A DNA stretch of 33,542 nt, taken from Acetobacter sp. (GTDB taxonomy: Bacteria > Pseudomonadota > Alphaproteobacteria > Acetobacterales > Acetobacteraceae). The position numbers and the translations under genes were made by a program. This document shows positions 15,109 through 28,943 of the stretch, piece after piece. The stretch's first letter is position 1. Each line of letters starts with the position of its first letter. The notes beneath the pieces are model-generated. The model had not been told where the DNA came from. It did not search any database and worked only from the letters and a program-made list of their open reading frames with translations. The stretch is from assembly GCA_017413025.1 (NCBI GenBank), contig JAFPVE010000014.1:1-33542 (forward strand), written 5' to 3'.

Positions 15109-15369
15109 ATGACTTCTCGTAGTTTATTTGCGGCTTTATCCGCTGTTGTTCTCTTTAGTGCTGCTGCTCCTTCTTTTGCGCAAGGTGGTGCTGCTGCTCC
15201 TGCTGCACCGGCTGCACCGGCTGCTCCTGCTGCACCGGCTGCTCCTGCTGCACCGGCTGCTCCGGCTGCTCCTGCTGCACCGGCGAATTCTGGAAATCAC
15301 CACAAACACCACCACAAACATCATCATAAAAAGGGTGCTGACTCTAACGCTGCTAAGGCTGCTAAATAG
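15109..15369 (+). CDS. Secreted Ala/Pro-repeat, His/Lys-rich protein (acid-shock-protein-like composition)
   Basis: An 86-residue exported protein. Residues 1-24 form a clear Sec signal peptide (basic start, hydrophobic LFAALSAVVLFSAAA, cleavage after PSFA). The mature part is ten AAP tripeptides followed by HHKHHHKHHHKK and an Ala/Lys tail. Composition and order resemble enterobacterial acid-shock protein Asr (signal peptide, Ala/Pro-rich, His/Lys-rich), a periplasmic intrinsically disordered protein. That is a compositional analogy, not demonstrated homology. The His/Lys block could buffer protons or bind Zn, Cu or Ni. GGAG lies 11 bases before the ATG. It is a single-gene unit with its own promoter candidate and a strong terminator, suggesting separate and possibly high expression. 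Confidence 0.75.
   Translation: MTSRSLFAALSAVVLFSAAAPSFAQGGAAAPAAPAAPAAPAAPAAPAAPAAPAAPAAPANSGNHHKHHHKHHHKKGADSNAAKAAK
15193..15282 (+). repeat. Ten in-frame 9-bp units encoding Ala-Ala-Pro
   Basis: Units alternate mainly between GCTGCTCCT and GCTGCACCG, giving a partial 18-bp higher-order period. Because units are multiples of three, copy-number change would lengthen or shorten the protein without shifting the frame. Confidence 0.9.
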
Positions 15370-27863: not shown

Positions 27864-27932
27864 AGTAGCGATCTCTTACACTAAAATCTTTTTCTTTCCT
27901 CCCAATAATTTAACAAAAACTTTTCACAAAAC

Positions 27933-27964
27933 AGGCAAGAAAGGTTATAACACCTTTTCCGCCT
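27933..27964 (+). terminator. Weak hairpin downstream of secF
   Basis: AGGC/GCCT outside and AAAGGT/ACCTTT inside form an interrupted stem with a 6-base loop, between secF and the convergent lipoprotein gene. The following sequence has TATTTTTG only after several bases, so efficiency as a terminator is doubtful. Confidence 0.3.
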
Positions 27965-28008
27965 ACCTTGTATTTTTGTATTGTGCACGAACATTACAAA
28001 ATCATTTG

Positions 28009-28803
28009 TTACTCAACGCCTGTCATTGCTCTCCACATTAACTTATGTTGTATACATCCGTGTTTCCCATCTGCCGGTAAGACTATATCCTCTGTTTTTC
28101 CATTTTCGCCGGGAAATTTTTTGAACAATGCTTGAATAAAGCATGGAGCAATAGCTGAAAAATTACCACTTATCCCGTCAGTCCCTTTACTCTTTAATCG
28201 ACCCTCATAGACATTTTGTCCAGTTTTCCTATTAAAAATAATAAGATCGAAATAACGAGTATATATGTCGTGTGAAACATCTCGTATCACAGATGTAGAC
28301 GCACCCCTATTAACATACGTATACGTGCCGAACAAATTACTACTACTCGAATAAGTTGCGCTCGAAGGAAGCGTATACGCCACCATGTTATGAACTGTTT
28401 TACGATTTGAAATGCCGTAAACAAAGCGCACGCCATAATAGGCTATAGCACCATTTGTCACAGGGAAATAGCCGTGACGTTGGAGATCACCTGCAATTAA
28501 ACCAGCATATTCTTTAAATTCAAGGTTATTTTCTTGCCCTTTTGAGGGAATAATCACAAAAGTTTTTCCCGGGATAAGCCCTTGTTCATCATGAAAAGAA
28601 GTGACTTGAGATTGTACTCTCGCACATCCGGATAACAAAAATATTCCTGCTAAAACCGTGCCAAACCGTGCCAAACCGTGCCAAACCGTGCCAAACCGTG
28701 CCAAACCGTGCCAAACCGTGCCAAACCGTGCCAAACCGTGCCAAACCGTGCCAAGAAAGTCATAACATCTCCTTATTAAGGGTACAAGAGAAAATTCATA
28801 CAT
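28009..28803 (-). CDS. DUF4136-like lipoprotein with frame-shifting repeat in the signal peptide (apparent phase-OFF)
   Basis: The body is a lipoprotein: hydrophobic LAGIFLL then the lipobox LSGC, and about 205 residues after the Cys. Those include KTFVIIPSKGQ, EYAGLIAGDLQRHGY, a YFDLIIFN strand and a late Gly/Lys segment, the layout of DUF4136 envelope lipoproteins. In its frame the only ATG is at 28803, with no ribosome-binding site, putting the lipid-modified Cys at residue 60. A well-formed start (AAGGAG, five bases, ATG at 28763) lies between, but reads one frame off through nine 10-bp repeats and stops at 28650. With a single unit it would read MTFLARFGTVLAGIFLLSGC, an ideal lipoprotein signal peptide. 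The gene therefore looks repeat-expanded and presently out of frame. Confidence 0.8.
   Translation of the reverse strand: MYEFSLVPLIRRCYDFLGTVWHGLARFGTVWHGLARFGTVWHGLARFGTVLAGIFLLSGCARVQSQVTSFHDEQGLIPGKTFVIIPSKGQENNLEFKEYAGLIAGDLQRHGYFPVTNGAIAYYGVRFVYGISNRKTVHNMVAYTLPSSATYSSSSNLFGTYTYVNRGASTSVIRDVSHDIYTRYFDLIIFNRKTGQNVYEGRLKSKGTDGISGNFSAIAPCFIQALFKKFPGENGKTEDIVLPADGKHGCIQHKLMWRAMTGVE
28653..28754 (-). repeat. Nine exact 10-bp tandem repeats (plus partial units)
   Basis: The minus-strand unit is CACGGTTTGG. Nine identical copies fill 28661-28750, flanked by partial units on both sides. Three units encode WHGLARFGTV in every phase, so the repeat stays open in all frames but changes the downstream frame by one base per unit. 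Perfect identity implies recent or ongoing slipped-strand expansion. Confidence 0.97.
28761..28775 (-). promoter_or_regulatory. Ribosome-binding site and start codon of the lipoprotein, currently out of frame
   Basis: AAGGAG (28770-28775), five bases, ATG (28761-28763). Reading from here gives 37 codons, through the repeats, to TAG at 28650-28652. Adding one 10-bp unit or losing two would join this start to the lipoprotein body. Confidence 0.75.
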
Positions 28804-28888
28804 CAGCGATTTAAAAAGAACTTTATCTCGCTTCTCTGTCTTTATAGAACAAAACGCCTAAAAAAACAAACCCATTTTCTCTTACGGC

Positions 28889-28917
28889 TTTATATATCTC
28901 CGTTATAATGCTGTCAA
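28889..28917 (-). promoter_or_regulatory. Near-consensus sigma-70 promoter of the repeat-containing lipoprotein gene
   Basis: Minus strand TTGACA (28912-28917), exactly 17 bp, TATAAA (28889-28894). It predicts a start of transcription near 28882 and a leader of about 120 bases before the ATG at 28763. This is the best promoter match in the window. It argues that the gene is still transcribed even though its main start is out of frame. Confidence 0.65.
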
Positions 28918-28943
28918 GCTTAAAAAAAATACCCTAGAAAAGA

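Follow-up and report, generated by a model that had tools for sequence, protein, structure and literature searches.

The window, i.e. the whole stretch of 33,542 nucleotides analysed here from the Acetobacter sp. assembly GCA_017413025.1, carries on its minus strand a gene for a DUF4136 lipoprotein whose start region contains a tandem array of the 10-bp unit CACGGTTTGG (Table 1). TRF assigns the array a period of 10, 10.2 copies and 100% match; nine units are complete (28661-28750) and flanked by partial ends on both sides, bearing out the first-pass annotation, which had placed nine perfect units between a start codon preceded by AAGGAG (ATG 28763) and the lipobox. Its longest period-10 matching run is 92, compared with a maximum of 14 in 2000 sequences simulated under a first-order Markov model trained on the region. 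Translation yields the decapeptide ARFGTVWHGL, stop-free in the two frames translated, and the third frame must also be free of stops because a 10-base unit has one codon cycle common to all frames, just as had been claimed. The array is in addition a mirror sequence, so that its reversal gives the same repeat and control counts are equal. Rfam returned no match for the region, and RNA folding of the array region was no better than that of shuffled sequences (z +1.49). Elsewhere in the window (15193-15284) lies a nine-bp GCTGCTCCG tandem repeat of 10.2 copies and 83% match, i.e. with a triplet-sized unit.

Downstream of the array, the frame is open to the end of the gene for about 210 codons, retains the conserved core of DUF4136 and passes the curated Pfam cut-off; no solved structure was found by sequence for this protein. 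The motif LSGC, which we take to be the lipobox, is preceded by a hydrophobic core. Export of signal forms of 40-60 aa is a prediction, as is the protein's final location. Upstream, the TTGACA-17-TATAAA site of the first-pass annotation is present on direct reading, and a stricter promoter scan omits it because its rule requires T as the final -10 base.

Table 1. Features of the DUF4136 lipoprotein locus (window coordinates) and members of the poly-C lipoprotein family in this genome and its sister
Feature	Position	Strand	Remarks
TTGACA-17-TATAAA promoter-like site	28889..28917	-	read directly from the sequence; putative function
Upstream ATG	28801..28803	-	no Shine-Dalgarno; in frame with lipoprotein at nine units
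AAGGAG Shine-Dalgarno	28769..28774	-	5 nt from ATG 28763; coordinates read from the sequence
Predicted main start codon	28761..28763	-	reads into the lipoprotein at 1, 7 and 10 units, not at nine
10-bp tandem array	28653..28754	-	nine full CACGGTTTGG units and partial ends
TAG	28650..28652	-	closes 37-aa reading from ATG 28763 at nine units
Presumed lipobox LSGC	28624..28635	-	follows a hydrophobic core
264-aa open frame	28009..28803	-	DUF4136 lipoprotein as assembled
DUF4136 domain (PF13590)	28108..28581	-	residues 75-232; E 6.7e-9, 36.8 bits vs cut-off 32.8
Poly-C member, own genome	C2:6140		C8; out of frame
Poly-C member, own genome	C16:40366		C9; out of frame
Poly-C member, own genome	C39:27944		C8; in frame from ATG 10 nt before tract
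Poly-C member, own genome	C43:88074		C9; in frame
Poly-C member, own genome	C38:1108		C11; out of frame
Poly-C member, own genome	C4:132		C12; in frame, then a stop
Poly-C member, own genome	C31:175083		C9; farther ATG out; near ATG gives 58 aa, further lesion
Poly-C member, sister	C26:30401		C7; in frame
Poly-C member, sister	C31:6632		C9; out of frame
Poly-C member, sister	C23:11534		C9; near ATG in, two farther ATGs out
Poly-C member, sister	C56:4813		C8; degenerate

A perfect repeat whose unit is not a multiple of three, positioned between the start and the body of a gene, is the arrangement of SSR-type translational phase variation, and here frame arithmetic alone dictates that unit number sets whether the full-length product is readable. 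With nine units, the frame of ATG 28763 ends at the TAG after 37 aa; it joins the lipobox at 1, 7 and 10 units, which agrees with the earlier statement that ten or seven units would restore it. From ATG 28803 the lipoprotein can be read at 0 and 9 units, giving 264 aa at nine, and at 8 or 11 units it can be read from neither start. The proposed three-state counter thus stands by frame arithmetic, the states being a strong start, a weak start and none.

What did not hold is the first-pass view that nine units represent a firm OFF state. This was an overcall because the 264-aa frame can be read from ATG 28803, and first ATGs lacking a Shine-Dalgarno sequence are common in this genome: across 20 stretches of it plus the window, an SD-like 4-mer lies 4-10 nt before the first ATG, which may not be the true start, in just 45 of 193 long ORFs (background 5 and 4), and a stronger one in 17 of 193 (background 3 and 1). 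When any in-frame start within the first 40 codons is allowed, a strong SD is found in 19 of 193 against a background of 12, so by this looser test SD use is weak. Among nine other window starts checked, one has an SD-like 4-mer. The ATG 28763 site thus appears unusually good for this genome, and a silent ATG 28803 is not to be assumed; we read nine units as probably giving low output rather than none.

Homologues of the gene are distant. The gene was not found in any of the 48 other genomes of the genus (one per species) at E<=0.001; six matches in five of these genomes (E 0.03-0.29), five of them with internal stops, were taken as noise. Homologues at 22-39% identity are present in 3 of 396 other genomes sampled from the family and in 22 of 384 others sampled from the class, and one plasmid homologue belongs to Fusobacteria bacterium ZRK30 (29.9% identity), with no DNA match among plasmids. 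The PF13590 profile run over the genus gave no match, not even in this genome or the controls, and is hence uninformative. Peptide scans found 59 stretches fitting the pattern in genome contigs and two in viral contigs, none of them a relative. Separately, a 20-mer of the repeat occurs in two viral contigs, at 2.4 and 2.6 copies.

Of 31 homologue loci, 25 could be aligned, the six without a tblastn match being dropped. A lipobox was recognised by pattern in 23, with 16-29 aa up to the cysteine, a range in which longer signal peptides could not appear since starts were sought only within 32 codons of the lipobox; in one further locus (L124) a CSC box was recognised by eye. One locus (L097) aligned only inside the gene, and two (L142 and L147) are one gene. 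The window protein resembles other DUF4136 (PF13590) lipoproteins in its domain and lipobox and is unlike them in the repeat near its start, a perfect tandem repeat of at least three copies being found there in none of the 24 homologue loci covered (23 distinct genes). Given the short signal peptides of the homologues and this lack of repeats, a short signal peptide is most likely the ancestral state, the array having expanded later. The related proposal of an ancestral signal sequence into which the repeat expanded is plausible (20 aa at one unit, within the homologues' range); the ‘one unit’ form as worded keeps one full unit plus a partial copy.

The gene lies between secF and a small lipoprotein gene (27864-28943), in what appears to be an insertion-prone gap. 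The window's SecF shares 93% identity with the SecF of Acetobacter sp. RGIG5182, a MAG from sheep abomasum, whose secF locus is found exactly in genome G012 of our set, hereafter the sister. At the same site, the sister has two other ORFs and no match to the DUF4136 protein. Both flanking genes were found in 23 of 27 Acetobacter loci, the other four being without a small-lipoprotein match; the gap between the matched parts is about 80-490 bp in 21 of the 23, about 1.2 kb in L016 and about 2.2 kb in A. thailandicus (L028). As gap contents and sizes differ among these loci, the site seems to take insertions.

The array is one of only two of its kind in this genome as sampled: a survey of 40 stretches (610 kb) plus the window for perfect arrays with a non-triplet unit of at least four bases and at least five copies returned the window array and an array of TAGCTATTGT (11.3 copies, L157:7685-7797, G000:C18), the latter some 40 bp upstream of a different lipoprotein gene. 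The product of that gene matches BamE below cut-off (18.4 vs 23.2 bits), and the array possibly lies in the promoter or leader of this BamE-like gene. No array was seen upstream of BamE-like homologues in the 29 other genus loci fetched (30 of 37 matches fetched in all), and in 27 Acetobacter loci (324 kb) no perfect array of at least three copies turned up for units of 7-30 bases.

A larger set of repeat-bearing lipoprotein genes is built on homopolymers. In this family, the start codon is followed by a poly-C tract and a lipoprotein core such as KFLLSISLFVSLSGC, with copies in and out of frame both in this genome (L280, L286, L297, L300, L246, L223 and L296) and in the sister (L281, L283, L269 and L291; Table 1). 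Eight members extracted by script interlink at E<=1e-3, sister C31 mostly via its signal peptide, and the remaining ones were identified by inspection. Two members were scanned against Pfam over their first 260 aa and gave no match. The signature CCCCCCN{0,7}AAAATTTTT occurs at six sites in this genome, five in the family and one (C26:32229) in no member, and at three in the sister. It is lacking from 46 of 47 other genus genomes, and the single match in the remaining one (G067) is at chance level because the reversed pattern, which is found in neither this genome nor the sister, gives up to one match elsewhere. Compared by blastp with the eight extracted members, the DUF4136 protein is not homologous to the family (best E 0.077, otherwise at least 6); since the proteins are unrelated, the design common to them is an analogy. 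In a homologous glycosyltransferase gene, moreover, a G9 tract occupies the same position in the two genomes, out of frame in this one (L228) and in frame in the sister (L256).

These tracts belong to a general excess of G/C runs. Relative to a first-order model, a 641-kb sample of this genome contains 24 runs of at least 8 bases where 5.0 are expected, 19 of at least 9 where 1.1 are expected and 9 of at least 10 where 0.24 are expected; none of 26 other Acetobacter loci exceeds expectation. Over the whole genome, we counted 34 runs of at least 9 bases here (23 per Mb) and 54 such runs in the sister (32 per Mb), the median over 49 genus genomes being 3.3 per Mb. High density alone is not peculiar to this pair, because G025 (2.3 Mb) and G006, both without the poly-C lipoprotein signature, reach 20 and 12 per Mb. 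Only 5 of the 34 runs belong to the poly-C family; 30 of the 34 loci were fetched, of which 12 have a downstream open frame of at least 90 aa and 18 do not. Runs also stand in frame inside ordinary genes, which we take to be aroK-like (this genome) and atpF-like (the sister). Five run loci (L233, L235, L237, L238 and L245) are copies of one repeated element with a G9-G10 tract and the flank ..ATCAAAATGATAA, four of them near contig starts; this is perhaps the end of a mobile element. Because many tracts lie away from gene starts or in ordinary genes and some poly-C members carry further lesions, lax selection in a small genome may explain part of the repeat load.

On balance, we consider it probable that the DUF4136 gene is a translational contingency locus undergoing phase variation, a reading drawn from one assembly. 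The 10-bp repeat would act between the start codon and the hydrophobic core of the signal peptide, where slippage would gain or lose one unit and so move the reading frame by a single base. With n=1 mod 3 (7, 10), ATG 28763 as the strong start would make the lipoprotein with a signal sequence of 40-50 aa, provided that so long a sequence works; at n=0 mod 3 (9, as assembled), the SD-less ATG 28803 alone could make it, with output expected to be low or nil; and at n=2 mod 3 (8, 11), it would be made from neither ATG. The locus would then be one among several repeat-bearing lipoprotein genes of its genome. In favour of this reading we counted the perfect array beyond chance, the non-triplet unit, the intact domain, the repeat-free homologues and, outside the locus, the excess of G/C runs, and against it the unusually long signal sequence of the ON state, the frame left open at nine units, the many tracts away from gene starts or in frame in ordinary genes, and the decay of some poly-C members. 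Phase variation is favoured over accident because other lipoproteins of the genome have similar anatomy and mixed frame states; the second 10-bp array and the poly-C family have in this respect strengthened the first-pass reading, with slippage as its presumed motor.

The alternative that fares best is neutral expansion, whereby slippage enlarged the array in an N-terminal stretch that tolerates it and the protein is made from ATG 28803, with an extended signal sequence and no switching. The open 264-aa frame of the assembled sequence, the scarcity of SD-like 4-mers among both the sampled ORFs and the other window starts, and the excess of G/C runs in ordinary genes all speak for it. Yet a coding repeat that is tolerated should not have a unit of 10 bp, the well-spaced AAGGAG serves ATG 28763 and not ATG 28803, and the homologues have short signal peptides while similar anatomy recurs in other lipoproteins; we regard neutral expansion as unlikely. 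It is more doubtful still that the assembled unit number is wrong and the gene, with 7 or 10 true units, is simply on. The 102-bp array would be near read length if short reads were used, the 1.46-Mb genome is in 45 contigs and 2 of 20 contigs first sampled start inside tandem repeats, but the array is closed within a 33.5-kb contig and a different n would leave the switch anatomy as it is. Least probable by our estimate is a decaying accessory gene, acquired at the insertion-prone site, switched off by the expansion and being lost: the lack of a match in the other genus genomes searched, the two other ORFs in the sister and the stops or shifts in some poly-C members would fit, but not the long open frame and preserved DUF4136 core behind the array.

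Beyond the single locus, phase variation of the DUF4136 gene leads to a broader proposal, to which we give an even chance: that a clade of Acetobacter with small genomes, perhaps associated with the gut, possesses a phasome resembling that of Neisseria. A group of its lipoproteins would be switched by repeats, both poly-C tracts and 10-bp arrays, which lie either between the start codon and the core of the signal peptide or a little upstream, and the DUF4136 locus would be a three-state member of this group. Repeat-driven phase variation has been studied mainly in mucosal pathogens. If the sheep-abomasum source of the sister is a guide, a gut-associated set would suggest that host life, not disease, favours contingency loci, and such a set in Acetobacter would provide a harmless genus in which to test this idea. 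The three-state start arrangement, in turn, leads to a clear expectation for arrays of 8, 9 or 10 units.

A search of a literature largely free of subscription papers returned nothing relevant on phase variation in acetic acid bacteria, Acetobacter or alphaproteobacteria. The remark of the first-pass annotation, which knew of no such switching in bacteria of this kind, calls for qualification, as hyper-mutable tandem repeats are on record in genes of A. pasteurianus IFO 3283, a member of the same genus (PMC4686929, citing Azuma 2009); the passages of that paper available to us mention nothing on lipoprotein signal peptides. According to the accessible parts of PMC2651432, the contingency loci of Haemophilus influenzae have tetranucleotide units, those of more than 7 nt being reported as not frequent; the DUF4136 locus is like them in that its repeat lies at the start codon or closely follows it and a frameshift leads to an early stop, and unlike them in its 10-bp unit. 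Another related system is Neisseria opa, with CTCTT pentamers in the leader-peptide region (PMC3960869, in the part available): both have a non-triplet repeat in the signal-peptide coding region of an envelope protein, and unit number sets the frame, whereas the DUF4136 locus, known here from sequence alone, has a 10-bp unit, a lipoprotein product, an alternative upstream ATG and an acetic acid bacterium as its host. The kind of mechanism is already known from opa (PMC3960869) and H. influenzae (PMC2651432); what looks new, within the literature searched, is that acetic acid bacteria should have a set of lipoprotein signal peptides bearing repeats.
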